From Orbilia blumenaviensis (Eukaryota; Ascomycota; Orbiliomycetes; Orbiliales; Orbiliaceae), in assembly GCA_036872755.1 (NCBI GenBank), contig JAVHNS010000006.1:1922001-1986000 (forward strand): DNA of 64,000 nucleotides, in the 5' to 3' direction. A program made the translations under genes and the position numbers. The notes beneath the pieces were generated by a model that made no database searches, was not told the origin of the DNA, and saw only the letters and a program-made list of their open reading frames with translations. Positions 8,066-35,336 of this stretch are shown piece by piece (within the stretch, counting starts at the first letter, position 1; every line of letters begins with the position of its first letter).

Positions 8066-8743
8066 CTTTCCAAAAAAATCAACCTCCTCCCTTTTTCTCA
8101 ATTCAAAAAAAAAAAGAAGCTTGAGTGAAGTAGCTTCGAAAGGAGCCGGAGAAGCTGGAGATGATGAGGATGAGGTAACGAGCGAATGAGAAGCTGGTGG
8201 AAAAAGGTCCCCAAGGCTATTGAGCAGAAAGAAACTTGGAAGGTATCAAAATTGCAACCTTGAAATCTGCGTTGGGGGCCGGCGATAATTATAGCCAGTC
8301 GGTGATAATAATTTGTCACCAACTCGGTTCCAGAACGCGGGCCGACCTCGAAATTCGAACGGGAACTCGGATTCCAACGGCTTCTTCGGAACATTGTAAC
8401 CTGATCCCGCCAAAATCCTGAATTAGGATAAGATAGTAGCAAAATACTCGAGCCCCGAATCATCCTTAGTTAATCCCGCCGAGTGTCATGGCATGCATGC
8501 GCATAAGCCACCAGCATATGTCAGACAGCACCAGCTAGCAATTCACCAAAATGCATGTACAAAAAGTACATCCTGGAGCTAACATCCCCGCTGTTCGACG
8601 GAAAATGGTGTAGCTGTATGCTCAAGCGCGATGGGAGGTAAAGTATAAAATATATCAAGTGGTCACCTTTGATTGAGTTATTCAGACTACTTTGTAACTT
8701 GGTTCGCTATAATTTTCTATATTTATCTGGACCGCACTGTGCA
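8066..8743. other. Divergent promoter region at the left border of the accessory island
   Basis: This region separates the ferredoxin gene from the first F-box gene. A TATA-like tract (TATAAAATATAT) at 8644-8655 lies about 90 bp before the F-box start codon. Nothing else is recognisable. Confidence 0.4.
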
Positions 8744-10327
8744 ATGGCTTCGATATACTCCCTCCCCGCCGAAGTGCTTCTCCAAATCTTTGCAGAGGGG
8801 ATACTGACCGCCGCTGATTTCGCCTGCTGCGCACTCACTTGCAAGCTATTCCACGACATTACATCCCAAAGCAAAGTCCATTATATCTTCAAAGTAGACC
8901 ACCCTTCCCATCCTACTTTCAAACTCATCCGGTGCCTCCTGAAAAAACCCAGCATTGGGGAACGATTCAAAAGCATCACTGTTACATGGCATCGTCGACG
9001 GCCTCGTAAGCCCCAGACATGGGCGGCTAAATGGCAATGGACTCCTGAGGAGCATGTCGCGATCAAAAAGTTCTGCAAAACCTGGGACATATTAGATACA
9101 TACAACGCCATTACATCCGGCTGGAATTCTGAAGCCCTACTCCCTCTTTTACTAGGGTTTGCTTCCCATCTGGAGTCCCTCGACTATGGCCGAACAGTAC
9201 TCTACCTAATGTACCCCAAACCCAGTTATCAGGAAGGTATCAGGATCCATGACTACTGCGAAGGTCATACGACATCTACATGGGAGCCCCAGTGTAGAGA
9301 GGATGATGGAGGCGACTATTATGACGCTTGTTGGTTTGGTCAAAGTCTCGGTGCATCATGGTTCTATTCTGCCCTTTATATGGATAAACCTGTGCCTGGT
9401 CTAGCGAACCTTAAACATTTCTCCCACAGCGGGTGTATAGACGATACATTTTGGCCGGGCCCATACCTTTCAAAAGTCCTCTTACTCCCCCAACTGGAAA
9501 GTGCGAGTATCCACAGAAGCCCAAGCGCGGGTTCACCACACTCCATTTTATCTTATCAAAGGCCCACAGAGCCTCGATTCCCAGCTGGCAAGAAATCTTT
9601 GGTTAAAAATCTAGACCTCGTTAATTGTTTATTTACACAAGAGGATTATAAGGCCCTTGCTGGGTTTACTGGATCTTTGGAGAAGTTTAAGTGTGTCGTG
9701 GAAGACATCGAATTTTGCAAGGAAGTCGCGGATATATTTCTACAGAGAAACAGGGAAAAACTTGTTGAGGAGAGTATAATTACGGCGTGCTCCCCACCTC
9801 TATCTGATCCCGTCGTCAGAAGTGAGGATTTCGGAACAGATGATGATTCTTATTTCCACGAATCATATCCTTCTGATATAGAGGAGGAGGAGGAAGAGAA
9901 AGAGGAAGGGGCGGAGGAAATAGAACAGGAAGGAGCCAGCGATGACGATGACGGTGAAGAAGCGCTAGTTATCCAAAACATGAGAAATATGAGAGAGAAA
10001 CTAAGGGGTAGCAAAAGCGGAGGGGAAGAGCTAACTGCGGACCTAAAGATACTGCAGAGGATAATTGGCGAAGACCGCGACAAAGAAGAGAAGGTCGAGA
10101 GGAATGGGGTCGATCAGGATAGCCAAAGCTCAGAGGATGAAGAACCATTGATTATCAGGAGTATGAGGAGAAGAAAGGGTAAAGAAATCGTAGGCAACCA
10201 TGATGGTGATAGGGAAAACGGAGAAGACAAGGTAGGCACCTACAATATGAAAAAGCTTAAGAGGAATAAGAAGAGGCTAATTGATAGCGAAAGTAAATCC
10301 GAGGATGAAGAGGAATATAGAGCCTAG
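8744..10327 (+). CDS. F-box protein, tandem family member 1, with acidic repeat tail
   Basis: This is a single exon of 527 aa. The frame is open from 8669, but the first ATG is at 8744 (MASIYSLPAEV), directly before the F-box. Residues ~5-45 form an F-box (SLPAEVLLQIF...CALTCKLFHDIT). A family-specific region follows, with VDH, LIRCLL and WHRRRP (W82), then SEALLPLLL and LESLD. F-box proteins usually recruit substrates to SCF ubiquitin ligases through Skp1; the substrate here is unknown. From about residue 378 the chain becomes an acidic, probably disordered tail in which a short motif occurs twice (EEALVIQNMR near 405 and EEPLIIRSMR near 465). The next two genes are paralogues. Confidence 0.82.
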   Translation: MASIYSLPAEVLLQIFAEGILTAADFACCALTCKLFHDITSQSKVHYIFKVDHPSHPTFKLIRCLLKKPSIGERFKSITVTWHRRRPRKPQTWAAKWQWTPEEHVAIKKFCKTWDILDTYNAITSGWNSEALLPLLLGFASHLESLDYGRTVLYLMYPKPSYQEGIRIHDYCEGHTTSTWEPQCREDDGGDYYDACWFGQSLGASWFYSALYMDKPVPGLANLKHFSHSGCIDDTFWPGPYLSKVLLLPQLESASIHRSPSAGSPHSILSYQRPTEPRFPAGKKSLVKNLDLVNCLFTQEDYKALAGFTGSLEKFKCVVEDIEFCKEVADIFLQRNREKLVEESIITACSPPLSDPVVRSEDFGTDDDSYFHESYPSDIEEEEEEKEEGAEEIEQEGASDDDDGEEALVIQNMRNMREKLRGSKSGGEELTADLKILQRIIGEDRDKEEKVERNGVDQDSQSSEDEEPLIIRSMRRRKGKEIVGNHDGDRENGEDKVGTYNMKKLKRNKKRLIDSESKSEDEEEYRA

Positions 10328-10901
10328 TGTCGGGGCCGTGTATAAACAACCCTGCCACAATTCGTATATCTTCAAAAAAAAAACGACTCAAGTAGGTACT
10401 AGTATGCAGGTTAGGGGTTTGCAATATGGGGCTTTGATTGAGTTGTTTATTTATACGTACCCCGCGCGTAATTGATTAACTATATGCCTAATTACCTATT
10501 GGTATCGTGATATCATGATATATCTGTCTAATAATAGAATTCCTTAAAACTTCCGATACCTGGCAAGCTATAGATAATTCGAAAATGCCTATGGAGGTAA
10601 TATAAACTCGGTTAACCTCATGGTGACGAAAAGGAAGAATTTCAAGGAATCAAATGTTGCAAACCTTATAGGGCTGGGGTTGAGGCTTGCAATTGCGTTT
10701 GTGGTTGACCGGGGGTGAGGCTGGTGGATGTATATAATACCCTGGATCCTCCCCAGCTTATGTCGTGACACTTGAACGGCCAACTGCAGCTGCTCGCCAC
10801 CTTACTTATCTTATACGGATATTCGCATCTAAGCGTCTAAGAAGGACTAAATCCCAAATAGTAATAAATAGATTTGAGAGGAAGAAGCAAAACTTATTGC
10901 A
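10328..10901. promoter_or_regulatory. Intergenic region with TATA-like box before F-box gene 2
   Basis: The spacer is AT-rich. TATATAATAC at 10731-10740 lies about 165 bp before the ATG of F-box gene 2. The same TATATAATACC string occurs about 200 bp before F-box gene 3, so it may be a duplicated core promoter. Confidence 0.4.
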
Positions 10902-12242
10902 ATGGATTCCCTCCCAACCGAGCTTCTATTACAAATCTTCAAATGCAAAGAGCTATCCCCCGTCGACCTCGTCCGTTGCGGGCGAACATGCCGCAGATAC
11001 CACGATATCACAAACTCATCCGAATTTAAAATCGATTACACATTCCAAGTAGATCATATATCTCACTCTGGCTGGAGGCTCATTAGATGCCTCTTGCTCA
11101 ACCCCGCTCTTGGCGAACGCTTTCAAAGCTTACAAATCGCGTGGCATCGCCGACGACGTCGGGATAAAACAACTTGGACCACAAAATGGAACTGGACGGA
11201 GGAGGAATTAGCCCATATTTCCGCTGTATTAAATAAATGGGGTATTGATGATTCCGGCACTCTTTACCGCGCCATCGAAATCGGACTTAATTCCGAGGCA
11301 CTCATTCCCTTGCTGCTCTGCTTTACCACGACGCTCGAATCCTTAGACATCGGGGAGGTGGCTCATGATATGATCTCCGATGAATACGGTCACACAATTC
11401 TCGATGCGGCCCAAATATTCAGCCACTGCATGGGATTGTCGTCTGGCAGCCCTCAGCCTGGTGCCCGCGACTCAAAGGGTGAAAGAATATCTAGAACTTC
11501 TCGGCGCCGCCCTCTTGACCCTTCGGGCACCTATAAAGTAGACCTTAGTGAGTGGTATCACAGTGGAGCTGGTCACTACAACCCCGGGGGCAGGCTTGTA
11601 GAGCCACTTAGGCATATCCCATGGATATACAACGCCTTCAACCCCAAAGCCTGGCCGCCAGGACTAGTCAGCCTCAAAGAGTTCTCTCACGGTAGTTCAA
11701 ATAGTGCGGCTCTAAGGTATAGACCTCGATCCCTGAACACATGGCCCAATAGGAACCTTTCGACGGTCCTCCAGCTGCCGAACTTGGAAACTCTCAAGCT
11801 CTCACATATCAATGCTTTGATGGGGACTCCAATACACACTCAAATAAAACCCCCTCACAAGCTCAAGCATTTAGAAATCTTCCACTACAGATTCTACAGA
11901 ACTGACTTCGAAAAAGTGGCAATCCTGACCGGCGGCTCCCTCGAAAGTGTAAAATGTGTCCTCTCAGAAGAGAACTTCACACCATGGGATATGAGCCCCG
12001 AAGACAAGATTCGAATAATCACCGACTTTTTCCATGATAACAGCAAAGAAACGCTTAAGAAGGAAAATATATCTGTGTATCGGAGTTTCAAGGGCTTCTT
12101 CGATGATTTTAGGTTCGATGCGAATGAGAATGCGGCTATGGTAGAGCAGTTGAATGCGCACTATGGGTCTCTGGATAGAGAGTGCCATGTATGCGACCAT
12201 CCCTACGAGGATGATGACGATCTTGAATTTTATCCTTATTAA
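10902..12242 (+). CDS. F-box protein, tandem family member 2
   Basis: This is a single exon of 446 aa starting at MDSLPTELLLQIF, so the F-box is at the very N-terminus (residues ~2-40). The block shared with its neighbours follows: VDH near 50, LIRCLL near 60, WHRRRR at 81-86, NSEALIPLLL, LESLDIGE, and later a GGSLESVKCV segment equivalent to GSLEKFKCV in gene 1. The acidic repeat tail of gene 1 is absent; the protein ends in a short acidic stretch. The role is probably SCF substrate recognition, with the target unknown. It is colinear with two paralogues, which indicates local tandem duplication. Confidence 0.82.
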   Translation: MDSLPTELLLQIFKCKELSPVDLVRCGRTCRRYHDITNSSEFKIDYTFQVDHISHSGWRLIRCLLLNPALGERFQSLQIAWHRRRRRDKTTWTTKWNWTEEELAHISAVLNKWGIDDSGTLYRAIEIGLNSEALIPLLLCFTTTLESLDIGEVAHDMISDEYGHTILDAAQIFSHCMGLSSGSPQPGARDSKGERISRTSRRRPLDPSGTYKVDLSEWYHSGAGHYNPGGRLVEPLRHIPWIYNAFNPKAWPPGLVSLKEFSHGSSNSAALRYRPRSLNTWPNRNLSTVLQLPNLETLKLSHINALMGTPIHTQIKPPHKLKHLEIFHYRFYRTDFEKVAILTGGSLESVKCVLSEENFTPWDMSPEDKIRIITDFFHDNSKETLKKENISVYRSFKGFFDDFRFDANENAAMVEQLNAHYGSLDRECHVCDHPYEDDDDLEFYPY

Positions 12243-12426
12243 CCATGGTTATGGAGGGATCGTTGGATTGAGGCGAATTTATGAAAGATTTAGATTGTAT
12301 TTCGTTTTGATTGAAGCACTAGTTCTTGGCGATATAGCATTAACTATGGGATGAAAAATGTTAATATATAACTATACTTACTTACTTATTGCAACGAAGA
12401 TATAAAGGAGGGAAACGTATGTATGT
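12243..12426. other. 3' flank of F-box gene 2
   Basis: AT-rich sequence between the F-box gene 2 stop codon and the terminal-inverted-repeat element. No gene is seen. Confidence 0.4.
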
Positions 12427-12450
12427 CGGACAAAAGGGGTCAGAACACGC

Positions 12451-12545
12451 TGAACTCAGAAACACACACTGAACTCAGAAACACACACTGAACTCAGAAA
12501 CACACACTGAACTCAGAAACACACACTGAACTCAGAAACACACAC
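12451..12545. repeat. 19-bp tandem repeat, five perfect copies
   Basis: The unit TGAACTCAGAAACACACAC is repeated five times without spacer inside the left arm of the inverted-repeat element. The right arm has a single equivalent unit, so the array probably expanded after insertion. The lack of spacers rules out CRISPR. Confidence 0.95.
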
Positions 12546-12794
12546 TGGACTTTAAGCGAAATCTTGGCCAACGGGAAGCATAAGTACGTTAATTTAACAT
12601 ATTTATGTTTGCTTGTCTGCATGCCTGCTGGCTCTAAACTAGCATCTGGTTTGGCAACTGGTCTGGCAGCTGGCTTCGTTAATACGTGGGTTAATAGTCG
12701 TGCCAGTAGCTGAGCAAGAAGACAAGCAAGCTAACTGAAACCCATTAACAATTCCCTTAAGAAAAATCCCCCCAAAAAATATTCTTTGATGGTA

Positions 12795-12821
12795 ATAAGT
12801 ATGCTAAATTAGCATACTTAT
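12795..12821. repeat. Perfect 27-bp palindrome in the TIR element
   Basis: Two 13-nt arms (ATAAGTATGCTAA and its reverse complement) surround one central base. A degenerate relative lies at 12580-12606 in the opposite arm. Confidence 0.9.
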
Positions 12822-12905
12822 GTCAGATTTCTGTCGTGCCAAGGTCTCGCTTAAACGTTCAGTGTGTGTGTTTTGTGAGTTCAGTGGGTTCTGGCCCCTT
12901 TCGTA

Positions 12906-13435
12906 TGGTATAAAGTCAGATCTAACAATTATAACCAGGTAGAAAGGATATTTAATTTAGCATTTTGGGTTCATGAACTAGAGCATATACGGATCGTGAC
13001 TAACGAAGTTTTCTGCTTCGTTGAGGCTGGTTTACGAGACCAGGCCGTGACAATTTGAACGGATTATGACAACAAAAATACAAAATTTTGTATTGTTTGG
13101 ATTGCCTAGAGGCCTAGGGGTTGACTCATGATCGCGGCCTCCCCACCCAGTCGCGCCGCCTGCACCCGCCCTGACTTGGCGATATCAATTGAAAGCGCCA
13201 GGCACCCAGGTAAGTAGGTACTTAGGTATATAATACCTTACTTTCCGTCGAGTAAATGGTATTGACACTGTGTACTCGACTTGTATTATTTCGGCTTCAA
13301 ACATTCCTTTACAATTCCCCACTTTCAAGATCTAAGCAGCTAAAGTGTGACTTCAGGGTACACCAACATTAGCCATAAATTTCGAATATATCAAATTGAA
13401 GGGAATCTAGAAATTGGTTTGGGTGGCTATTTAAG
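12906..13435. promoter_or_regulatory. Upstream region of F-box gene 3 with TATA-like box
   Basis: TATATAATACC at 13227-13237 lies about 200 bp before the ATG of F-box gene 3 and matches the string before gene 2. A copy of a dispersed repeat lies at 13008-13060 (described separately). Confidence 0.4.
13008..13060 (-). repeat. Dispersed repeat copy (GGTCTCGTAAACCAGCC family)
   Basis: On the minus strand this reads CTGGTCTCGTAAACCAGCC followed by TCAACGAAGCAGAAAACTTC. Near-identical stretches occur at 20749-20796 (+) and 31724-31766 (+). It includes short hairpins (CTGGT/ACCAG and AACGAAG/CTTCGTT). Confidence 0.7.
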
Positions 13436-14914
13436 ATGGTAGCCTCTCTAACGACCCTCCCCGCCGAGCTTCTCGCCCAAATCCTCTCCCGTGAAACAGG
13501 GATTACCTCATTGGATATTTCCAACTGCTCGCTTGTCTGCCGGCGCCTCTACAACCTCACTGTCGATCGTAAGACAAAATACAGCTTCCATGTCGACCAC
13601 CGCTCCCAGTCAGCCTGGCATTTGATCCGCTGTATCCTATCGAACCCCACAGTCGGTACCCGGATCCAGACTATAGTGTTAACATGGCACCGTCGCCGTC
13701 CTGGACAATCCACAACATGGACTCCGCAATGGATCTGGAGATCCCAGGAATCCGCACAGATCCGAGAAATTTGTAAAAAATGGGGCATATACGAGTTTTT
13801 ATACCCGGTTATAGAAGACGGGTTTGATTCTGAGGCTCTGCTACCATTATTGCTGTGCTTGACGCCGAATTTGGAGTCATTGGATCTGGGTAATATTTCA
13901 CCGGGTGTCATATATGGCAGGTTCTCGGCCAACGCAGCCGTGAAAGTTTTCAAAGCCTGTGATCGGGGTCATTTGGCGCAGAACTACAAAGTACGACATA
14001 ATGCCGACGAAGGCGTTTATTTCGACTGCCGCTGGGGCGCCTCCTATCGCAGAAAGGTCCTCTGGTTCCACACAATTTTGAGCTTAAACATCTGTCTCCC
14101 TGGAATGTCGAATCTAAAGCACTTTTGTCATGGTTACGTAGCTTCCGCGCAGACGGGTGGGGAACGTCAGGGCTGGCCGGCGAAGTATGTTATAAAAGTT
14201 CTGCTACTGCCGAAAATTGAAACCGCATATTTCCATGGAGCAGCCCGATCTGAGCATACCCGGATTGAGCGCCAGCGCCAGCCACTATCCGCTGCCATTC
14301 CGAGGTCTTTAGCCGGCAAGAAATCCACAATCAAAAACCTTGAATTTGTGTATTGCGACCTTGAGGACGAAGATTACTCAACAATCGCAAAACTCACAGG
14401 CTCTCTGGAGAAACTCGTGTGTCCTATTCCCCCCCCTCTGTGGTTTCACCTGAGAACGCGAGGGGCGTACGTTGCAAAAGTCTTCGCAGAGAACAATAAG
14501 GACACGCTAAAACGCTCTAACATCTCTACCCCTCAGCTTGGGCATCGGTCCAGACGCCTTTCCTACATCACAGATGTTTACTTTCCATTTAAAGAATCTG
14601 ACGAACGGGAGGATAGGGAAGCTGCAGCGAAGCAACATCAAGAAAATAAAGAAGGGCTGGATTACATAGCAAGTCGGATATGGAACGATGACGAATACGC
14701 TGACGACGAATACGAGGAGGAGGGTGATTGGGAGCCGTGCGATCATGAGTTTGAGTGCCATTGCGAAGATTTCTTGTTCGACGAGTCGTCTAGTGAAGGA
14801 TATGAGATGGAGGGTGAGGACTGGTGGCAGCAGCAGCGTGCGATTGATGCTGAGGTAGCTCTGCGGACGAGAGATGTGAAGGGCACGAAGAAGAGGAGTC
14901 ACTTTGTTAACTAG
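13436..14914 (+). CDS. F-box protein, tandem family member 3
   Basis: This is a single exon of 492 aa. The F-box is at residues ~6-43 (LTTLPAELLAQIL...CSLVCRRLYNLT). The tandem-family block follows: VDH near 53, LIRCIL, WHRRRP at 84-89, then SEALLPLLL, LESLDLGN, an AGKKS...NLEFVYC segment and GSLEKLVCP. The tail is acidic with a Cys/His cluster (CDHEFECHCEDF, around residues 435-446) that could bind metal but matches no motif I know. The role is probably substrate recruitment to an SCF ligase; the target is unknown. It is the third paralogue in a row on the same strand. Confidence 0.82.
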   Translation: MVASLTTLPAELLAQILSRETGITSLDISNCSLVCRRLYNLTVDRKTKYSFHVDHRSQSAWHLIRCILSNPTVGTRIQTIVLTWHRRRPGQSTTWTPQWIWRSQESAQIREICKKWGIYEFLYPVIEDGFDSEALLPLLLCLTPNLESLDLGNISPGVIYGRFSANAAVKVFKACDRGHLAQNYKVRHNADEGVYFDCRWGASYRRKVLWFHTILSLNICLPGMSNLKHFCHGYVASAQTGGERQGWPAKYVIKVLLLPKIETAYFHGAARSEHTRIERQRQPLSAAIPRSLAGKKSTIKNLEFVYCDLEDEDYSTIAKLTGSLEKLVCPIPPPLWFHLRTRGAYVAKVFAENNKDTLKRSNISTPQLGHRSRRLSYITDVYFPFKESDEREDREAAAKQHQENKEGLDYIASRIWNDDEYADDEYEEEGDWEPCDHEFECHCEDFLFDESSSEGYEMEGEDWWQQQRAIDAEVALRTRDVKGTKKRSHFVN

Positions 14915-16764
14915 CCTTTTACATTGCTTCCTAAACGTGTAAAAAGATCTTGAGATTCGCCTTTGGAGCGGAGTATGTTGCCTAGAATGCCTACACCTCA
15001 AATTTCTCATTGTCATATATAGCACCTAAAATTATTATAATGTCTTCCACTGGAACTGGTACAAACTAGAGTCAAAATGATATGTTAAAAAAGATTATCA
15101 AAAATAACTGAATTTATAGATCGCCGTTTAAGTGGCCCAGCGAGTCCACCCGCATAACCCATGAATACATCGATGTAAGAACACAGGCAGCGCAGTTCAC
15201 ACAGCTTTTCAGTGAGGTTTAGGCTTAAAATTTTAGTGATTCTCTCTGGGGATAGTTTCGCGGCGCAGACCTAGTAGCATGACGCACTAGATCACTAGGC
15301 TGAAGATATTAGAGTTGGTGTGCACTCCATTGGTGCCACTAGAAATGGTGAAACAGCATTTAATTGATACCATATGCTATGAACAGTATGCAGTCAACCA
15401 TATACGAGAACCAATCCTCTTATATCACCAATTGCCTTGTCCCTAATAGGTCCAAAATATGCTCCTTAGCTATATGGTTTGTATTTCTATCAGCATCTGG
15501 TATAACTTTCTTGACAATTTATAATCGTTTTGGAAGCGTACATCTTTAAAGCTTTGAGAGGGCTGTACCTTGTAAACCCCCCCCCCCCCCCCCCCCCCCC
15601 CCCCAAGAGAAACAACAATCTAGCACCACAACTACACAAAAACCATATGCCAGCTTAAACCTAACTTAACCATGCAAACTAAGCTGGTAACCTGTCAAGG
15701 TGAGGTATATAAAACTTTGGTAGTTACTAGCGCAGCATTACAAATCAAGCCACCATAACTCATCGCTTTTCCATGTATCACCTCCTTTTATTGAATACTG
15801 TAACCAGAAAACTCGATGTATACATGTATGCAAATCTATTAAACTTTATTTACTTTTCCATAATATATAGTTGGCACATTATATATATAAAATGTGTGCG
15901 CGTCTGGCCCCCGAAACTAATGTAATGCAAAGACAGTTCTATCACCGGCTCAGCAGGTACCAAAATGTATTGTTTCTTCTTTGGCCTTCCATAGTCAGAC
16001 CAGAGCTGCAGAGTATCGAGGGAAGAAAAAAAAAAAAAAAAAAAGAAAAGAATCGATAAATGCCTTGAAAGGCAACACATAAATACAGCATGTTGTACGA
16101 AAGGAGGTGTCAAAAATTCTGGAAAAGGGCGTTCAAACCCGTCGCCATCTGACATAGCCTAGATGTAGTCTCAGTGCCAGATCCCAGGTAGCTGTTAGGT
16201 AGATGCCCGCTCGCCCAATAGCTCCGAGACTACCACAGATTAAATATCCTCCATTGAGCACCTCTTATCCACTCTGTATTTCCATCATACAGAAACAAAG
16301 CCATGTCGTCCGAGTTTTAATTTCTATCACTGATTTAATGCTCGCTAGCTCACGCTCACCATGAGACCCTGGATCACCTTTAATATTTGGGATACGTTTA
16401 CCGCTCAATAGACTAATTTGCCAATGGCTTATCGTTTACATAAAAATATATCCTACACCGAACCTATGTGGACCCTCTTGTTTTGGCTATACGTACATCA
16501 ATATATCCCGTAATTTATTCATAAAATCTTTTATGATGCACTAAGGCTTGCCCAGTTCTATTTACATACGGATTTAGGAGGCTGCATGACAAACTCTGAC
16601 CACTCCAGCATCTTTCTAATAGCTATGCATGTCCGTCAGAGGCTCTTACTGCCCATCAGTCTTTGTAATTCATAATTCGTTATTTCATAATTCGTCCTTC
16701 GTGACAAATAAATAATCCCTTCTCAGATCCTCTTTCTTTTTAAAAGGCCGCCGAGATCTACAAA
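14915..16764. other. AT-rich intergenic region
   Basis: No gene is visible. It holds a 28-base C homopolymer (15577-15604) and an A-rich run near 16027-16050. The sequence just before 16765 is the 3' flank of the leftward Egh16-like gene. Confidence 0.5.
15577..15604. repeat. Poly-C run, 28 bases
   Basis: An uninterrupted run of 28 C. Its true length is uncertain because homopolymers of this size are hard to assemble. Confidence 0.9.
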
Positions 16765-17868
16765 CTAGTAGTATGTCTCCTCCATGGCTTCATTTTCATC
16801 TTTCTTAGCAGTTTCCTGGTTTACCTCTTTAGCCTCGGCAAGAACCTCTTTTTCAGTCACAGGGAGCTTCTGTTCCATAATGGCCTCTGTTTCCTCCTTG
16901 GAGTACTCTTCTCCGCCCATGGCTACTTTAAGCTCCTCCTTAGTAGGAGGAGCTACTGGGACTGGTTTAACAGGTACCGGTGTGGCAACAGGCTTGGGGA
17001 GGGGCTTAGGCTTTGGTGCCTCAGTAATAATTTGCTGGACTGCGACACAGCCACCGAACGGACCATTTTTAGCAGTGTTTTCGCAGCGCATCAGGCACAT
17101 ATTCCTCCTGCTCCCAGAAACACCCGTGCATTTAAGAGTCGTTGGAATTACCGCGGTAATCCAAAGATTTGGCTTGTGGACAGTACCAGCATTGATGGAC
17201 CACGTATTACCGGGAACGTTCTCTTTAAGGGTTAACCACGAGCCGAAACTTCTCCCCGTACCAGTAGGATCTATCTTGCATTTGTATGGGCCAGCGCCGT
17301 CAGCATTAACCTACCGGTCATGGGTTAGTGATATTGTTTATGTATATACTTTTATTTTTACGGAGTAATGAGAGTCTTTGGATGGGAAAATATTATTACT
17401 TACCTGATGAATCCTCATTCTTAACCAGCCCCCTGCTGATATTTGTGGAATCGCATTGCTTGCTACAAATTTGGAGGTTTCCCCGGGGACATCCAGCGAA
17501 TAGGAGCGTTGAGCTTGAAAAACATTCTGAATGGTAAGACTATGCCAGCCGTGAAGCATAAGCCACGCGCTAGGTTTGATTTCGTGTCTCCAGACTAGAC
17601 CTAGGCTCAAACCGCAACCTTGGGCTTGATACACACGCGGTTTATGGCAACAAGGAATAACTGTATTTGCAAAAACAGAAACTTCGCTTTGCCAAGGGTG
17701 CAGATCTGTGCCGTAGGGGCCCTTATTGAAACTCCAACTTGTACCCAGGCCTCGGCCGCGAATGCCTTGATTTACGTTTCCGTATGCATCAGCAATGGTT
17801 GCGTGGCCATAGATTGAGCTGACACAGCTCAAGAGGGTAACGACAGAGGTGCTGGTAATAAGGTGCAT
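16765..17868 (-). CDS. Secreted Egh16-like (gEgh16/Mas/GAS family) protein
   Basis: There are two exons, 17868-17404 and 17310-16765, with a 93-bp intron; the product is 336 aa. A hydrophobic signal peptide covers about residues 1-21 and would leave His22 as the mature N-terminus. The family signature is clear: a HATIADAYGN start, a Cys-containing middle, and near the end of the conserved domain LKCTGVSGSRRNMCLMRCEN followed by GPFGGCVAVQQ. This family (Egh16-like) includes appressorium-expressed secreted proteins of plant and insect pathogens; the biochemical function is not established. After the domain comes a Pro/Lys/Val-rich linker (KPKPLPKPV) and a ~55-residue charged, Glu-rich tail, an unusual extension. 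A TATAAAAAG box lies about 200 bp upstream (18063-18071). Confidence 0.85.
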
Positions 17869-22601: not shown

Positions 22602-24782
22602 ATGGCTGCACCGGCTCAGAAGTGGGCGGTACTCATCGGTATAAATGATTACGGTGAAGGGGGGTTGTATGAGAAACAATGGCACAACTTCGATAAAAAG
22701 GAGATCACGTTCAGCAACTTGAGAGGCTGCGTCAATGATATCATCAAGGTAAAGAAGTACCTTGTCGAGGTCCACGAGGTCCCCGAGCAAAATATCAAAA
22801 TCTTGGCCAAACCCTGCCCTGAGCACCCGAATGATAACGGAGGCTCCAAATGTTCTGAGTGTTCTATAGAGAGGCCAACTTATGATAATATTATGAAGGC
22901 GCTATGCAACATAACCGAAGACGCCAGGAAGGATGGCTCCAACTACAAGCGGAATGATCTCGTCTACATACACTATTCTGGCCACGGAGCTAGGACCACG
23001 ACAATATATCCGGGGCTTAAAAACCTGTCAGACTCGAGAAACAGCACTTGTCAACGCATCAATCCAGACCCGGAAGATGATGCAATAGTGCCTTGTGATA
23101 TAATGACTCGGAGACGCTTTCTCCGTGATGTCGAGTTCGCTGATATTCTGGACAGTATAGCTGAAGAAGGACTATTCCCGACTATCGTGCTCGACTGCTG
23201 CCACGCCGGTGGGGCTAATCGAAGCACGAACGACTGGAAAGACAACAAAGATGTGATGGTGCGAGGTATTGAGGATGTAATACAGTCGGAACTAGTCGAC
23301 CCTCTCGATTCTGAATACCCCCAAAAGATTAAAGAACGTCAAGATTATAGTCCCAACTGGCTCTACAGCAAAAAAAGAAAGTATGTGATTTTCGCTGCAT
23401 GCCAAAAGTTTGAGAAAGCTAGCGAGAAAAACGGGAAAGGTGCCTTCACATCATGGCTACTTGATGGTCTTCGTATCCTCAGCGAACAAGGCCACATAAT
23501 ATCGGCCGAATCAACATTTGATCTAATCAACAGCATTCACGGCAGCGCCGGAATCCAAAAATATAATATGCAAAACCAGAAACCACTTTTCCTCGGAAAC
23601 AAGGAAAAATCGTTCTTCAGTGAAGCTCAGATCAACACGCAAATTATCGAAGTCCTAAGTGTGCAAAAAGAAAAAAGAACGGTCCAACTAAACAGAGGTC
23701 GCACCCTCTACGTACAGATAGGTTCGGTGTACAACATCGTGCCTCTCGGTTCAGGTCTTGATTGTAAAAGCCCTATTGCGCAAGTAAGAGTTACCGAGAT
23801 TGATTGTGGGTGGTCTCGAGCAATTTTCGAACCCAGTGGCCTTAGCGAGTGCGACGCAGACCACATATTGGATTCAATGAAAGGCTGTCAGGCTGTCTTG
23901 CATAGTCTACCCCAGGAGAAGAAATACACTGTTCGGCTCAAAACGGATAATGAGGCGCTACGGGGACAGTTTAACGATATTTGGAACAAAAACCATAAAA
24001 ACAACGCCGTGCTTACCTTAAAAGAGGACAAGGACAGTGTCGTAAAGTTTGAAATCGTCACTGAAGGCTCCAAATTTGTGGTTCATAGCAAGGACGTTGA
24101 AATCGCCGCCATGATGCGAAATATATCATCCCTATCTATATCGACAGAAGAAGACATATCGCCGGCCGTGGAAAAACTCGTACTCATTCTCGAGCACTTA
24201 ACGGAATACCAAAGATCAATGGTAGAGACAGGTGAAACGTCTGACCTCATTGAAGTGGTGCCTCAAAAGGACCTCAGCGGTCAGGGTATACAGCCAGACG
24301 GCACGGGCCGATTTCAGGCAGAAAACAAACAGTGTATTCACCTGAGGATCTCTAACAAGTCCAATCAGGAAGTATATTTCGCCTTTTTGGCCTATACCGC
24401 TGAGTTTGGGATCAAAATATACAATGAGGATTCATCCTATGACACTTTGGCTGGGAATCTCGACAACGGGGTTGAAGCCCGTTTTCACGACGTAGAGGTT
24501 ACAGTCGAGGTACAAGAACACTTGCAAGAGGCTTTTAAACAGGGTTGGAAGCCGGTAGAGACGTACAAGATAATTGCATCCGTCGACACAGCTGATGTCG
24601 CCGGGCTAAACAAATCGGGACTCAAGCCATTGCTCGACATAGTGTCTGAGCCTGCCCCTGAACCAGGGAGCTCTCGGAATAGTACGTTCCAGAGAAAGGT
24701 ACTACAGCGTCGCTGGCAGACGAAGGAAATCAAGGTTGAAATACACCCCAGCCGAGAAAAGGATCTCACGGAAAATAACTGA
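22602..24782 (+). CDS. Caspase-like (metacaspase-type) protease 1 of the gasdermin-like cluster
   Basis: This is a single exon of 726 aa. The caspase-fold domain covers about residues 5-330: strand WAVLIGIND at the N-terminus, then DLVYIHYSGHGAR with catalytic His128, and PTIVLDCCHAGG with catalytic Cys200. Between them DPEDDAIVPCD resembles the acidic stretch that gives metacaspases their Arg/Lys preference. The domain ends around SWLLDGL...QKPLFLGN. The remaining ~390 residues contain a small beta-rich segment with regularly spaced glycines (about 345-400), and a predicted beta-sandwich near 585-700 that vaguely recalls DUF4384. A divergent paralogue lies 1.1 kb downstream, and a gasdermin-like gene follows that. 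I infer that it activates the gasdermin-like protein or its neighbour protease; this is not proven. Confidence 0.8.
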   Translation: MAAPAQKWAVLIGINDYGEGGLYEKQWHNFDKKEITFSNLRGCVNDIIKVKKYLVEVHEVPEQNIKILAKPCPEHPNDNGGSKCSECSIERPTYDNIMKALCNITEDARKDGSNYKRNDLVYIHYSGHGARTTTIYPGLKNLSDSRNSTCQRINPDPEDDAIVPCDIMTRRRFLRDVEFADILDSIAEEGLFPTIVLDCCHAGGANRSTNDWKDNKDVMVRGIEDVIQSELVDPLDSEYPQKIKERQDYSPNWLYSKKRKYVIFAACQKFEKASEKNGKGAFTSWLLDGLRILSEQGHIISAESTFDLINSIHGSAGIQKYNMQNQKPLFLGNKEKSFFSEAQINTQIIEVLSVQKEKRTVQLNRGRTLYVQIGSVYNIVPLGSGLDCKSPIAQVRVTEIDCGWSRAIFEPSGLSECDADHILDSMKGCQAVLHSLPQEKKYTVRLKTDNEALRGQFNDIWNKNHKNNAVLTLKEDKDSVVKFEIVTEGSKFVVHSKDVEIAAMMRNISSLSISTEEDISPAVEKLVLILEHLTEYQRSMVETGETSDLIEVVPQKDLSGQGIQPDGTGRFQAENKQCIHLRISNKSNQEVYFAFLAYTAEFGIKIYNEDSSYDTLAGNLDNGVEARFHDVEVTVEVQEHLQEAFKQGWKPVETYKIIASVDTADVAGLNKSGLKPLLDIVSEPAPEPGSSRNSTFQRKVLQRRWQTKEIKVEIHPSREKDLTENN

Positions 24783-25903
24783 CCGTCGTTTCGACGCGTC
24801 GCCTCGTGTTTTTAGTCTAGTTATAAGGACGTGCGTGCGCTGATCATAACATCATGTTGGGAGTCGTCCTCGTTTTGACTTTAGACTTCCCTTATTTACG
24901 TCGCTTCTAGGTGCTATAGCTTTTATGTAAAGTGCCTAAGCTTGGTACCTATATTAATATATTTTCGCGCCATTCCTACATGTTTCTCCAATACACTACC
25001 TCATCACATAGCTAAGTGCCTGAGACCAGCTAACTACTTAAATGTATATAAAGTAGTACTTACTATGCTAGTTGTTTAGCTTAGGCTGGCTACGAGGCTC
25101 AGGTGTGCTGAGGGTTGATTTGTGCATGTACTGGTATCTTTTTGTACCTATTATACTACAATTAACCATACATCCCTACTATTCTATATACTGGTGTTAT
25201 CTTTGCGATACATATTTAAAACTGCGTTTTGATGTAGTATCGGGGCCAAAATGTCCTTATATAACTACTTAGCTATCTAGGCACTTATTGGGTACCTACT
25301 TAGATTAGGATTCATGATCAATACTTAGAGTTCCAAAACAGCGCGGCCCCAACATGGTATGCATGTGGCTGTATGACAATGTACCTGAGCCGAACACGAA
25401 CTAAGGAATTTGTATATCCTGCCACCCATATATTCATCTAACAACGCCACACTCGTAGACGTATCCAAATCGCATAGCCCAGGAAGAGATGTTTGGTAGC
25501 CGCAAACCCTCCAAAATTGCAAGTTCCGTCGGTCTACTCCAGGTCTATGTGATTGCTCTTAAAATTGCTAGAGCCATTTTAAGTCAAGCTTTTGCTTAAC
25601 TTACCAACTTTAGGTACCCAGTATGCTCTTATTTAGTAGCTAACTTAAGCTTATCGACCTAGGACACCTAACTAAGGCGCTTAGCTAACTTCCGAACGAC
25701 AGGGTCTGCGATTATCCCCGCCCGCGGCCGTTAACTACCGCATTAACCAAGTATCGTTAGCCTTGCGAATTAAGGTTCTATTGTTACCCGCGACCGAACT
25801 AAACTTCTCTAAAATAAGCTTATAAGTGCTTAGCTATATTTTGCAAAAGGGAGCGATATCCGAAGTGGTTAGCGGGAAGGTTTAAAATCGTCGGCAAGAT
25901 AAG
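24783..25903. other. Intergenic region between the two caspase-like genes
   Basis: 1.1 kb, AT-rich, with several CTAGGTA/TACCTA-type short repeats. It should hold the terminator of protease 1 and the promoter of protease 2. No gene is seen. Confidence 0.5.
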
Positions 25904-28024
25904 ATGGCGAGGGTCAACTCAAGCGCTCTTCTAATAGGCTGCGACTTCTATTTCCCCGGCACATCAAGAAACACCGAGAGCAACCAGATCACTTTCCCGC
26001 ATCTCCTGGGGGCAGTAAGTGATGTTAACCGAGTTGAAGATTTTTTACTCAGCTTAGATGTTCAGAGAGCCAATATCATCAAGTTAACGGCTTCATACGA
26101 CCCACTCTCTCCCGAGGCGCCGGTCGAAAAGGATCCGGCGAAATGGCCTACTCACGCAAATATAATTCGCGAACTGGACTCTATAGAGAAGCGAATGGAG
26201 CCCGGTGGGCTCGTATATATCCACTTTTCCGGCCACGGCATCCAACGAGGGGAAGTGGAACTAGAGAAAACAGCTAATGGCGGTGATTCACTTCGTGGTG
26301 CTGCGTTGGCGACCACCGACGTCCTGCTAGATGGAGGGACATACCTAACAGGCTATCAACTCGGTCTGCATATCAAAACCATGACTACAGTACTCGGCCT
26401 TCGTGTAACCTTGGTGCTGGATTGCTGTTTCTCTGGGCGGGGGCTGCGAGATGTCGTTATCTCAGGGACATACACACCTAGAACCATTATAGACTGTCGG
26501 GATACAAGTGTGCTGGATATCGATCGCAAAGCAGATTGCGCAGCCGAGGAACACGCTGCGGACTTATCAGGATTAAGGCACTCGACAGTACGGGAAAACT
26601 GGCTATCGCATCCAGTTGGATGCACAGTGATCACCGCGTGTGGTATCGGCCAGACGGCCGGAGAATCCACTTTCAGCGACGCTACAACTGGCCCCGGCAA
26701 AAAATATGGCGTTCTCACCTACTGGATGCTCAAGAACCTCACACAGGTTCGAACCAAATCACTCCCATCGTATGCTACCTTGAAAGATTATATCATCGGA
26801 ATGATCAAAAATTCGAAATCTCGCGCCGAACAGGTGCCAGTTCTCTATGGCGATATTGACTTCGAATTTTTCGGTAATAAAAAGCATGTTCGAAGACCAG
26901 CTTGCCGCGTGATTGAAGTCCGGGAGGACAAAGTCCGACTGAATGTTGGTAGTGCCCAGGGGGTCGCCAAAAATGCGGTTTACGATGTTTACCCGCCTGG
27001 TGTAAATGTTGACGATATCTATTCCTCGCATCACGCATGGGAGGCTCGTGTTGTTAAGGTGGACGACTTCTGCTCAGAAGCGCTGCTTTCTGAAGCTAAT
27101 AAGGCGGAAGAAGGGAGACTCGTCCCCAGCGATCATCATATTTACGCTGGTGGTTTGGCTGTTCTTCGCTCATGGGCGCTTAAAATCCCGCGCAAAGTCA
27201 GGACAACCATTGAAGATCATAATATGAGGAAGCTTCTTAAGGTCGCTCTAGAAAACACTTACAATTTGTCCCTGCTGGACGATGGGGCTGGTGCAGAACA
27301 ATTTGTCATCGAGACGGGCAATAACATTTTTGAAATACATGAACGAACTGGTCGGACATGGTCTAGGCTGCAGAGACTTCCTGCGGTAGCAGTGGACTCC
27401 GAGCTTGCACCGCAACAACTTGCACATCTTATCCGCCATGTCTGCCGCTACCGAGAGATCGAGAACCTCATAGACCACATGAGGTCCAGGCGGGTGCGCG
27501 AGGAGAAATTCGACATGTTGTTTTACAGGAGTAATGAATTAATAGAACCCACTGAAACTGACGGGGTTAAAACGTTTAAGGTAACGGCTGGGGAGCCATT
27601 GCAGCTCAGACTACTCTATAACGGCCCAATTTCATTTGTATGGGTCGTCTTATTTGAGCTGAATAAAGCATGGGGCGTTTCTAAAAAGCTCGCGCTCAAG
27701 CTGTCCAAAGGTGCGATGGAGCCAGATAAAGATAGCTGGCCCATTGGGTTCTCAACAGCGATCCCCCCGAAGTGCACTGATAGTGATTCGGATGATACTA
27801 TGGACATTTTTATGGCTTTCATTGTGGAGGGAGAGGACGAAGTATCATGGGACGAGCTCGCGCTCGAGGATTTGCCAACCGATATTAGAGAGTTGCGGCT
27901 GGACTTTGATACAGACCAGGAATCCGAGTCCGAAAGATCAAGCCGGGTACAAAAATCCACGTCAGGCCGACATTGGGGGGTCACGTCATTTGTTGTCCAC
28001 TCGATCCCAAATAAACTAGTATAA
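25904..28024 (+). CDS. Caspase-like protease 2 of the gasdermin-like cluster
   Basis: This is a single exon of 706 aa. The caspase-fold domain lies at about residues 6-300: SALLIGCDFY, then GLVYIHFSGHGIQ with catalytic His111 and VTLVLDCCFSGRG with catalytic Cys175, and later TVITACGIGQTAGES and a GVLTYWML helix. Unlike protease 1 it lacks the acidic DPEDD stretch between His and Cys (it has GGDSLRGAALATTD), so cleavage preference may differ. The same overall plan follows: a small beta-rich segment near 320-390, a helical region, a beta-sandwich near 550-650, and a Ser/Glu-rich C-terminus. It converges on the gasdermin-like gene with 258 bp between stop codons. Probable role: proteolytic trigger in a regulated cell-death module, inferred from fungal protease/gasdermin pairs. 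Confidence 0.8.
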   Translation: MARVNSSALLIGCDFYFPGTSRNTESNQITFPHLLGAVSDVNRVEDFLLSLDVQRANIIKLTASYDPLSPEAPVEKDPAKWPTHANIIRELDSIEKRMEPGGLVYIHFSGHGIQRGEVELEKTANGGDSLRGAALATTDVLLDGGTYLTGYQLGLHIKTMTTVLGLRVTLVLDCCFSGRGLRDVVISGTYTPRTIIDCRDTSVLDIDRKADCAAEEHAADLSGLRHSTVRENWLSHPVGCTVITACGIGQTAGESTFSDATTGPGKKYGVLTYWMLKNLTQVRTKSLPSYATLKDYIIGMIKNSKSRAEQVPVLYGDIDFEFFGNKKHVRRPACRVIEVREDKVRLNVGSAQGVAKNAVYDVYPPGVNVDDIYSSHHAWEARVVKVDDFCSEALLSEANKAEEGRLVPSDHHIYAGGLAVLRSWALKIPRKVRTTIEDHNMRKLLKVALENTYNLSLLDDGAGAEQFVIETGNNIFEIHERTGRTWSRLQRLPAVAVDSELAPQQLAHLIRHVCRYREIENLIDHMRSRRVREEKFDMLFYRSNELIEPTETDGVKTFKVTAGEPLQLRLLYNGPISFVWVVLFELNKAWGVSKKLALKLSKGAMEPDKDSWPIGFSTAIPPKCTDSDSDDTMDIFMAFIVEGEDEVSWDELALEDLPTDIRELRLDFDTDQESESERSSRVQKSTSGRHWGVTSFVVHSIPNKLV

Positions 28025-28282
28025 ACGTCGATCTACCGCTAGATCTACCACTAGATCGAAGTAACTTGGACGTTCAAATTTCTCGGAGCACCACCAACCA
28101 ACCACGGGGTGACAGAAAAACAGGGGCAAGAATACAAATTTTGGCTAGATTTTTGCCTCGCCTTTAGTGTCACCCCCGTACCGGCATACAATAGGGGAAA
28201 ATGTTTTTTCATTGATACTTGAATACTCAACAAAAAAAATTGGTATCATAAATCGTTAGGTCATGGTGTATCGTATTAAAAA
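28025..28282. other. Convergent spacer between protease 2 and the gasdermin-like gene
   Basis: 258 bp holding both 3' ends and one foldback MITE (28102-28180). Converging transcripts could overlap here. A short CTAGATC repeat occurs near 28039-28055. Confidence 0.5.
28102..28180. mobile_element. Foldback MITE, family A, copy 3 (between protease 2 and the gasdermin-like gene)
   Basis: Inverted ends run from CACGGGGTGACAGAAAAACA and GGGGCAAGAAT to TTTTTGCCTCG...TGTCACCCCCGT. It has the same terminal GGGTGACA and CAAGAAT motifs as the other copies but a diverged core. It could act as a shared hairpin terminator for the convergent genes. Confidence 0.7.
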
Positions 28283-29303
28283 TTACAAATATCTATCTAA
28301 CTCTTCCCAATCCACATCCTGCATCAATTCAAGAAGATCCTCCCCTTCTAGTTGCTCATCATCATCATTCGTTTTACCACTTGCCACTATCTCTGCTATT
28401 TCGCCACTGATATTAATGGGGCGACCACCAGCTCGAATACCTCTGTTTTTGTGATTCGGCAAATCATGTAGCCGGATCCACGTTCCAGGGCTATCTCCAT
28501 AGCAAAGGCCCGAGCCCTTAGGCTTAAATTTCACTGAAAGCTCTGTAAATTGTGCCGCCCATACCCTCGAATCGGTATGTCCGTACATTGTGGAAGTGGA
28601 CCGGCTAATTGTATTGGTCATACCAACAGAAACCATGCCCCCTTGGCCCGTCAGAACTGTGACCGCTGCAATAATGGGATCTGGAGCCGGCGCGGTTGCC
28701 GAAAAACCAAGCTGCTTGTCTTGACGGTCCACGATGCTAATTTTTGCATCCACGACTGTTTGGATGCCTGTTACTAGCCAGATGCGGGTGCCCTTGCCGA
28801 AGGTTCTATGTAGATGCTCAAGATGCCGTGAGACGGAGAGGTAGTTCGCCAACCACGCTCGTGCACCCTCCGACTTAAGCACCACATTATTCAAGAAGGT
28901 CTCTGGTTTTCTGATTTCGAAGCGGGTACCAGATTTACCAGATATTATAATATCTTTCGATCTTCCACGGCCTATTTCGCCGTCGAGGAGACTGAAAATA
29001 CCTGAAGCGACTGTCCACTGGCGGGAGGCGGAGAATGATAAAGTAAGGGGTGCATTGACATCAGGCTTTCCAACCCAGTTCGCCAATTCAGATTCACTCG
29101 TAATCTGTCAGCACATTCGGAACGATCATATGTATCTGTTACAGGCCAAAACATACGTAAGCCTACCTCAGTGACGATTCAAATCGTTTTCTTTCACCAT
29201 CCAGAGGGTTAGCTGGATCGATGTATAGACTTCCAAGCTTGAGATCTTCAGGTAATAGGCCCCTGCTGTAAACCAGATAGGTCTTTTTCTGCTTTCCGAC
29301 CAT
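28283..29303 (-). CDS. Gasdermin-like pore-forming cell-death protein (putative)
   Basis: There are two exons, 29303-29167 and 29096-28283, with a 70-bp intron; the product is 316 aa. I start at the ATG at 29303, since upstream in frame there is only a GTG. The acceptor is ACGAG: the CTGAC branch site is followed too closely by a CAG, and only the next AG keeps frame. Features resembling fungal gasdermins are LKLGSLYIDPANP near the N-terminus, a beta-strand RIWLVTGIQTV (150-160), a Gly/Ser-rich stretch that could form a membrane hairpin, and RVWAAQF (223-229) closing the core. A basic linker (261-271) and an acidic tail (289-316) follow, matching the short C-terminal regulatory segment of fungal gasdermins. 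It has no signal peptide. Location beside two caspase-like proteases supports the call; similarity is at motif level only. Confidence 0.62.
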
Positions 29304-33247: not shown

Positions 33248-35336
33248 TCGTGTAGCTCGCTGTTGGCCATGACCTGCCACCAGCCTACCACCAGCCTGCC
33301 CGCCTATTTAAAGGTGAGACAAAAGCCAGACAGCCAGACAGCCAGACGTCAATTGAACAGCACACCAACTCAGAATCATTCCACACACCCAGCCGTTCAG
33401 AACAAACACACTGGCACGCACACATTATTAACTACAATTACGTATATTAAAAAAAAAAACAATAACCTGAACCTTTCGCCGCTTAACTGTCTAGCTGTCT
33501 AGTTATCTAGCTGTCTAGATTTTTCTAAACTTTTAACAGACCAGGCGGGCAGGTTAATAACAGGCCAATAACAAACTAATAGTAAAGTTAATGGTCAAGC
33601 ATAATTATGAAAATTTAACACACTTATGCCTTGCTTAAGTTGTAATGTATATATTTTGCATGGTTTGTATTAAATATTGTTTTGACACATTTTGGCCGCC
33701 ATAGTGCTTCAAATGTTACTAGCTAGTACATAGATAGTTAGCCAATTATTCAGACATAGAGCGGTTGACTTCTAAACTAGGCTGGGCGAAACGTGGTTTG
33801 CGTTGAGTATCAACCATAAAATTGACATTGTGGGCGGGGAATTAAACTGCTAAAACTCTGACTATTGACGACCTCATGAAGCAGCTACTGAGCTAGCAGT
33901 TGGGTGAACGTGCGGCGGCAGATGCCTGCTCTAGTTATCAAAGTAAGTGATTGTGGCTGTTTCGGAGTGCTCTAATCACTTCAAGCGCGGATTATTTCCT
34001 ACTAACATTACTACCACTACTATAACTACGATAATTACTACTACCATTACAACAAGCCTTTGAGATCCCGGAAACCGTTTTCCGTGTATCGAAAAATAAG
34101 GTACGATCCTGGTATACCGCTCCCTCCCAAACCATTAATATTTTTAGAAATACCTACGTGTTAGGGTTTTAGGGTTTCTGACCCTTCATAATCCTTCGAA
34201 CAAGACAGTATATTTACTGCTTTGCATATATATACGTAAATAGCCTATGCGCAATCCCGTAATTGAACTGGTCTTTACGACACCGGGTGTGACACCAGAG
34301 ATGGCGTTTACTTCCGCACATTCACCCGACTGCTAGCTCAATAGCCAGAGCTTTTGCAATTGGCAGTTGATTCTCTGCCTACAGCGCCAGCTTGTGCTTA
34401 GTACCCAATGCAAGCCGCGTTACATCCAGTTCAGACCAGGAATTGACTGCTCTGTCTGTGCCCGAATGAATTAGCTGGCTACATATCTGTGTAGCAGCTG
34501 GTAGCCTGCGAATCTGCTACCTGCCCGCGAACCAGCTAATAACCCAGTCTCGTAGTATCGACGCTTCGTTGCTGATAACCTACGAACCAACTGCCAGCCT
34601 ATAAACTAACTTCCAACCTGTAAACTAGTTTCTAGTTCGCGAATTAGCTATTAGTCCATAACCAGCTTGCTTATCTATTTGTTAACCACCGCACAGGGTT
34701 TTGGCAAGTTTCTCAAGACGGTTTCTAAAAAAAAGGAATTTGGAGCAGCATAAATAATGATTAAATCTTTTAATATTAGGAAAGAATCCCAGAAAAGTAC
34801 CCAAAGCCGATACGGCACTAACCTATAAATTACCGCAGGGGAAAGGGGTTCGTTTTTTCGGGCCCGTCTTCAAATGCAAATCAGTTTTACATTAGCTTTC
34901 GCAGTGGTAAAGACATATTTAAAGAGACATTAAAGCGTCTTCTAGTAGACACATCAGGGTCCTCAAAAAACACACTACTCTCCCCTGCGGCAATTACTAT
35001 ATCCGCTTGCTTATTGTTAGCTTGTAAATTAGTTAGCTACTGTACTTGGATACTTGCTACTAACCTGTAAACCACTACATACTTGCTTAACTAACATGTA
35101 GTTATTTAATATGTGACTTTTTTTAAGTAAATTAAGTTATCTTGAAAAGATATCTGCATGTGAAGCCAGCCTAGCGGCCATACATCCTTCTCCATACAAA
35201 ATCCTTCACCTGCCTACAAGATTACTCTATTCCAGTCGCTCTTAAAAAAGCAGCCGGGCAAAAGCTATATATACATACTTAGGTAGACAACACATCTCCA
35301 CCTGTTGCATTTCCCCCAAGACCGATGCTACTCACC

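Follow-up and report, generated by a model that had tools for sequence, protein, structure and literature searches.

The stretch of Orbilia blumenaviensis DNA that was analysed (the window, 64,000 nucleotides) lies on C6 (1922001-1986000) of the 42.5-Mb host genome assembly and carries two protease genes followed tail-to-tail by a third gene, for which a gasdermin-like product is predicted:

22602..24782, + strand: casp1, 726-aa C14 protease, apparently metacaspase-like; dyad H128 (22983-22985) and C200 (23199-23201)
25904..28024, + strand: casp2, 706-aa C14 protease, apparently metacaspase-like; dyad H111 (26234-26236) and C175 (26426-26428)
28025..28282, no strand: intergenic gap that separates casp2 from the gasdermin-like gene, tail to tail, 258 bp from stop to stop
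28283..29303, - strand: gasdermin-like gene, 316 aa (splice model identical to a deposited protein; predicted fold)
29303-29167, 29166-29097 and 29096-28283, - strand: exon 1, intron (70 bp) and exon 2 of the gasdermin-like gene
28286..28435, - strand: R267 codon and 49-aa acidic C-terminal tail (residues 268-316), a possible regulatory tail

As the initial annotation had it, casp1 and casp2 are intron-less genes, each an uninterrupted ATG-to-stop open reading frame, and both His/Cys dyads are intact with the residues that it named. The spliced product of the third gene is identical along its full length to the deposited protein TWF730_009402 (Orbilia blumenaviensis), and the 316-aa length and the 258-bp tail-to-tail spacing given earlier stand with it. 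An adjoining protease gene is a trait of fungal gasdermins, and here casp2 supplies it. The chance that a random 1-kb gene would lie less than 300 bp from any of the seven C14 loci of this genome is about 0.0007 under naive uniform placement, and on that basis the proximity exceeds chance. The observation made at the locus is confirmed and its interpretation as a cell-death module is partly supported.

Peptidase_C14 was the sole Pfam match in both proteases (casp1 46.4 bits, E 5.1e-12; casp2 29.0 bits, E 1.1e-6; both above the curated cut-off of 21.4 bits) and the PADLOC ‘caspase’ model recognised them as well (E 5.9e-23 and 3.9e-16 respectively). In neither was there an S8 subtilisin-type domain or a match to the CHAT domain (PF12770), Pfam recognised no TPR, WD40 or ANK repeats, and the C-terminal regions (390 residues in casp1, 387 in casp2) hold no Pfam domain above cut-off. 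The C14 match starts at residue 7 or 8, leaving no N-terminal prodomain of the kind that type I metacaspases have. Among solved structures the best relatives of the protease domain are metacaspases, with which casp1 and casp2 share the dyad and two acidic positions assigned to the S1 pocket but from which they differ in the missing prodomain and in the C-terminal region of about 390 aa without a Pfam match. The S1 pocket of TbMCA2 consists of Cys92, Asp95, Ser156 and Asp211 and that of MALT1 uses Asp365, Asp462 and Glu500 (PMC4357240, excerpt). The residues at the TbMCA2-type positions are C43, D46, S126 and D198 in casp1 and A37, D40, S109 and D173 in casp2, i.e. two Asp and one Ser are kept in both proteases and Ala replaces the pocket Cys in casp2; this placement comes from common motifs and from alignments to Metacaspase-1, -4 and -9, TbMCA2 itself being among the matches, and covers two of the three sides of the pocket. 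Metacaspases cleave after Lys and Arg (PMC9622860, excerpt), and the two acidic pocket residues predict the same Arg/Lys cleavage for casp1 and casp2, which from their sequences appear to be metacaspase-like rather than Asp-cutting caspases. The earlier description of them as caspase-like holds for the C14 domain and the dyads and is corrected as to the predicted cleavage, which would not be after Asp. Many fungi have C14 relatives; on the prokaryote side, cyanobacteria account for most of the best 80 out of 357 loci. Bacterial CHAT neighbours were also seen, a sighting without base-rate control, and casp2 itself is missing among the 120 of 420 C14 matches listed.

The 316-aa protein had been called gasdermin-like on the strength of sequence motifs, and sequence searches did not confirm these: neither the protein nor its family gave anything relevant in Pfam, NCBIfam, PADLOC or the PDB (a profile set without RCD-1 or HET-Q1 models). 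The weak Pfam matches, for example Autoind_bind at 3.5e-5 in one family member, are presumably due to chance or a foreign reading frame. It is the predicted fold that carries the name. The structure model (pLDDT 64.0, pTM 0.65, i.e. of moderate confidence; 56.7 and 0.57 when built with 12 sequences) was compared with known structures, as the initial annotation had proposed; gasdermin entries take ranks 1-12, cytolysins follow from rank 13 and the first match that is neither comes at rank 29 with a probability of 0.03. RCD-1 came first in the two VIA runs and again in a second Foldseek run. The model thus places the protein in the gasdermin-type pore-forming fold, nearest to the fungal RCD-1, and this assignment is supported at the level of a prediction; the model can be aligned to solved gasdermins up to about residue 285-290, and the gasdermin-type domain would span approximately residues 4-288. 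The family has at least 23 members (the scored set was the 7996 candidates with most words in common), is single copy in the host genome and includes an O. brochopaga homologue (TWF696_000440) with 69% identity over the full length. Its other members come from Rutstroemia, Cadophora, Acephala, two species of Aspergillus and metagenome contigs. No relative was found in the viral and prokaryote contigs scanned, both of which are non-fungal collections. As to linkage in other fungi, the name of a Rutstroemia record is a hint in favour, and a hint against is that the other family members share no apparent contig with C14 relatives (judged by eye among 120 of 420 matches listed).

The C-terminal tail is the other conserved feature of this family. 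Position 267 is R in 21 of the 23 members, K in one and Q in one (R/K in 22/23), whereas downstream of it K or R occurs at any single position in at most six of the 23; in two members R267 is the sole basic residue of the tail. The 49 residues past R267 amount to 5.46 kDa with a pI of 4.05, and near the C-terminus a ‘MQDVDW’ stretch is conserved (M304 in 17/23, D308 in 21/23, W309 in 20/22). From these sequence properties the acidic tail is a possible regulatory tail. R267 as a settled cut site was rejected because the last predicted strand (279-284), which is within the region aligned to solved gasdermins, comes after it.

The C14 family was then considered across the host genome. There are 11 C14 matches, two of which (C2:1285891 and C1:2068821) were dropped as presumed true metacaspases on account of proline/glutamine-rich starts, judged by reading; the remaining nine group as seven loci, the relic in the window (see below) being excluded. 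A CHAT gene lies within 5 kb at five of these seven loci: the genome has nine CHAT matches, and five of them are separated from a C14 locus by 1.2-5.0 kb (at C1, C3, C7, C8 and C9), for which p is about 1.5e-11 assuming uniform and independent placement and with a 6-kb limit chosen after the distances had been seen. The gene pairs are divergent at C1, C3 and C7 and convergent at C9. TPR repeats next to CHAT exceed the Pfam cut-off only at C1, are below it at C7 and C9, and were not found next to the C3 CHAT gene. The C8 CHAT match carries stops and this locus also holds a frame-broken C14 gene; its two C14 genes are consecutive and one belongs to the casp2 clade. In the window there are two C14 genes and none of the nine CHAT matches. 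No third gene common to the C14 neighbourhoods was found other than C14 and CHAT, PNP_UDP recurring at C8 and C9 only. Side-by-side clan-CD proteases are hence the usual arrangement in this genome. As the C14 paralogues usually adjoin a second clan-CD protease gene, the two-protease reading advanced earlier is strengthened, in terms of adjacency rather than of function. The adjacency of C14 and CHAT genes was rejected as proof of a cascade; it concerns position only, and C8 and C9 have duplicated genes in common.

In a quick tree of 50 C14 sequences (stop-to-stop frames trimmed at 420 aa), casp1 clusters with Orbilia ellipsospora and the paralogue at C3, and casp2 with the paralogues C8b and C9, with a support of 99 for each four-sequence set and 86 for the casp1/C3 and casp2/C9/C8b forks themselves. 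Since casp1 and casp2 are in different clades, a recent tandem duplication was rejected. The terminal branch of casp1 is 0.89 compared with 0.14 for its sister.

No large open reading frames were found in the flanks of the locus. The description of this region as a repeat-rich island stands on one side, where, within 29.7-35.8 kb, the region around 33.3-33.7 kb is a dispersed repeat (a search with the whole segment gave 111 matches, many falling on this repeat), but not on the other, where 18.1-22.5 kb has short repeats only (49 matches). A broken C14 fragment (the relic) is present in the window at 15366-15823; tblastn with four CHAT proteins of the same genome found no CHAT remnants in the window.

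Known protease-gasdermin systems give the locus its context. About 80% of fungal gasdermin genes adjoin protease genes, approximately 63% S8 and 19% CHAT (PMC10197012, excerpt), and a second estimate of these neighbours is approximately 60% S8 and 17% CHAT; HET-Q1 has 278 aa and sheds its C-terminal 40 residues, about 5 kDa (PMC10989679, excerpt). The Orbilia locus resembles HET-Q1/HET-Q2 of Podospora anserina in having a small gasdermin-type protein next to a protease gene, and the 40 residues lost from HET-Q1 may be set beside the 49-aa tail past R267 of the 316-aa protein. It differs in that HET-Q2 is a single S8 subtilisin-type protease whereas here there are two C14 cysteine proteases, in that HET-Q1 is cleaved whereas the Orbilia protein is a putative substrate, and in that the two gasdermin families have no visible sequence match. 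In P. anserina a TPR-bearing CHAT protease also activates a gasdermin (PMC12881547, excerpt). Such fungal CHAT clusters (Q2-L type) likewise have a gene for a caspase-fold clan CD protease adjoining a gasdermin-type gene, but the Orbilia proteases match Peptidase_C14 and not CHAT, have no recognised TPR, WD40 or ANK repeats and are paired. Bacterial gasdermins adjoin C14 or CHAT caspase-like proteases, which cleave them after a Leu or Arg residue located about 20 positions before the end (PMC9612521, excerpt); compared with these operons, in which Peptidase C14 or CHAT genes likewise adjoin gasdermins, the Orbilia genes are eukaryotic, are separate transcription units on opposite strands, encode a larger tail and show no sequence match. 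RCD-1 of Neurospora crassa is the best structural match, but the Orbilia family has the conserved tail in addition. The step that follows the CHAT protease in the bacterial SAVED-CHAT cascade is a C14 caspase. SAVED-CHAT proteases act in immunity through a proteolytic cascade (PMC11229360, excerpt). Fungal gasdermin clusters with caspase-related (CHAT) proteases are already known, and S8 and CHAT are the proteases that the reviews name; C14 proteases beside fungal gasdermins were not named in the literature searched, which comprised reviews without the Clave et al. 2022 survey, and two distantly related, metacaspase-like C14 proteases beside a fungal gasdermin-type gene look, on that literature, like an unusual variant of a known fungal cell-death switch.

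A variant form of the protease-activated gasdermin module is the most likely reading of the locus, and we give an even chance to the specific form in which it is a fungal cell-death switch thrown by tail removal through a neighbouring C14 protease. The 316-aa protein would be a pore-former held inactive, with its gasdermin-type domain followed by the short acidic tail. A neighbouring metacaspase-like protease, perhaps casp2, which is favoured because it is nearest to the gasdermin-like gene, would cut off the tail or cut near it, and the freed domain would form oligomers in the plasma membrane and bring about cell death. The other C14 protease might be a second trigger or, possibly, the upstream activator in a two-step cascade. 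The fullest version, in which such a cascade of Arg/Lys-cutting metacaspase-type C14 proteases activates a gasdermin unrecognised by sequence and is one variant among a larger set of paired clan-CD (C14/CHAT, C14/C14) modules dispersed in this genome, is a tentative one that we regard as doubtful.

The main rival is that the gasdermin-like protein is real but independent of its neighbours, being RCD-1-like or the substrate of a distant protease, and that the C14 pair is a module of its own with other targets. The CHAT genes at five of seven C14 loci and the single gasdermin-like copy suggest that the C14 family mostly works without such a protein; C8 also has a consecutive C14 pair with one gene in the casp2 clade, and RCD-1, the top structural match, acts through two co-expressed variants and is described as uncleaved (PMC12881547, excerpt). 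Against this are the 258-bp placement with its naive p of about 0.0007, the finding that a majority of fungal gasdermins adjoin their own protease (PMC10197012, excerpt), the conservation of the tail across the family, and the possibility that gasdermins too diverged for sequence search are hidden at the other C14 loci, and we consider independence unlikely.

Less probable again is that the 316-aa protein is another MACPF/CDC-type pore-former or an unrelated fold misdrawn by the model. Both models are of modest confidence, cholesterol-dependent cytolysins occupy many of the lower structural ranks and gasdermins are not matched by sequence; yet the unbroken run of gasdermins ahead of the cytolysins, with anything else so far below, argues for a gasdermin, and 316 aa with a short tail fits the microbial gasdermins, HET-Q1 at 278 aa being an example (PMC10989679, excerpt). 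That the three genes are what remains of a larger, decaying immunity cluster and have no present function as a unit is very improbable: although the broken fragment in the window, the damaged CHAT and C14 genes at C8 and the long casp1 branch would suit decay, all three genes are intact with their catalytic residues retained, and the gasdermin-like gene is preserved at full length in O. brochopaga.

A 2026 review (PMC13304501, excerpt) calls for the cleavage targets to be identified and for the cleavage residues of gasdermins to be mutated in a range of fungi, and on the substrates of fungal metacaspase-type proteases in cell death the locus gives a concrete hypothesis that can be tested in yeast. 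A family of at least 23 members that has the predicted fold without a recognised domain suggests that surveys by sequence may under-count fungal gasdermins. In the two proteases the C-terminal regions are candidates for the sensor part, and the repeated pairing of C14 and CHAT genes in one genome suggests that in fungi a series of proteases may be at work instead of a single sensor-protease. If true, this would be a fungal counterpart of caspase cascades, in a pyroptosis-like eukaryotic module.

In a quick tree of 50 rows of the Peptidase_C14 family (C14, PF00656), the end branch of casp1 (22602-24782, the 726-aa protease gene of the trio with casp2 and the gasdermin-like gene) was 0.89 versus 0.14 in the paralogue on contig C3. 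The catalytic dyad of casp1 is intact, and the long end branch points to fast evolution of the gene. The 706-aa product of casp2 (25904-28024) is absent from the 120 listed of 420 C14-matching database proteins, although it was part of the query alignment; its annotation in the public records may differ. The surroundings of the trio in the window include the following features.

8642-14911 and 16768-17310, three consecutive F-box-like ORFs and one Egh16-like ORF, upstream of the trio
15366-15823 on the minus strand, a broken, casp2-related piece of a C14 gene with stop codons, 7 kb upstream of casp1
about 33275-33705, dispersed repeat matching many places in the genome on both strands

C14 relatives were also seen in other settings. 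Three metagenome proteins of 1081-1088 aa (P0072, P0082 and P0102) carry both PF00656 and PF00079 (serpin), and so combine a protease and a protease inhibitor in a single chain. A profile from four fungal sequences of CHAT, another caspase-fold (clan CD) family, detected CHAT-like ORFs (E 0.01 or better) in the fetched stretch at 10 of the 80 best of 357 prokaryote loci with C14 relatives (L029, L031, L066, L084, L085, L095, L098, L100, L101 and L107), a raw count without a base rate.

In the O. blumenaviensis genome itself, CHAT genes adjoin C14 genes at five loci (fetched stretches L010-L015 and L021-L026).

C1:2908510-2915703
C3:1288489-1296679
C7:1481168-1486716
C8:483369-495601
C9:1863783-1867695

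Further features lie in the fetched stretches.

L024:1378-3390 and L026:968-2902, PNP_UDP_1 genes adjoining the C9 and C8 C14 loci
L014:2430-4633, C14 paralogue C8a, reading frame broken close to the catalytic Cys
L016:4373-7023, truncated C14 fragment adjoining an NB-ARC-type ORF (Pfam E 1.1e-4, slightly under the cut-off)

The PNP_UDP_1 genes share 57% identity, and their presence at both loci is a sign of cluster duplication. Trial introns gave no convincing join across the C8a frame break. At the five loci the genes mostly form divergent pairs, and the C14 and CHAT neighbours are possible two-protease modules.
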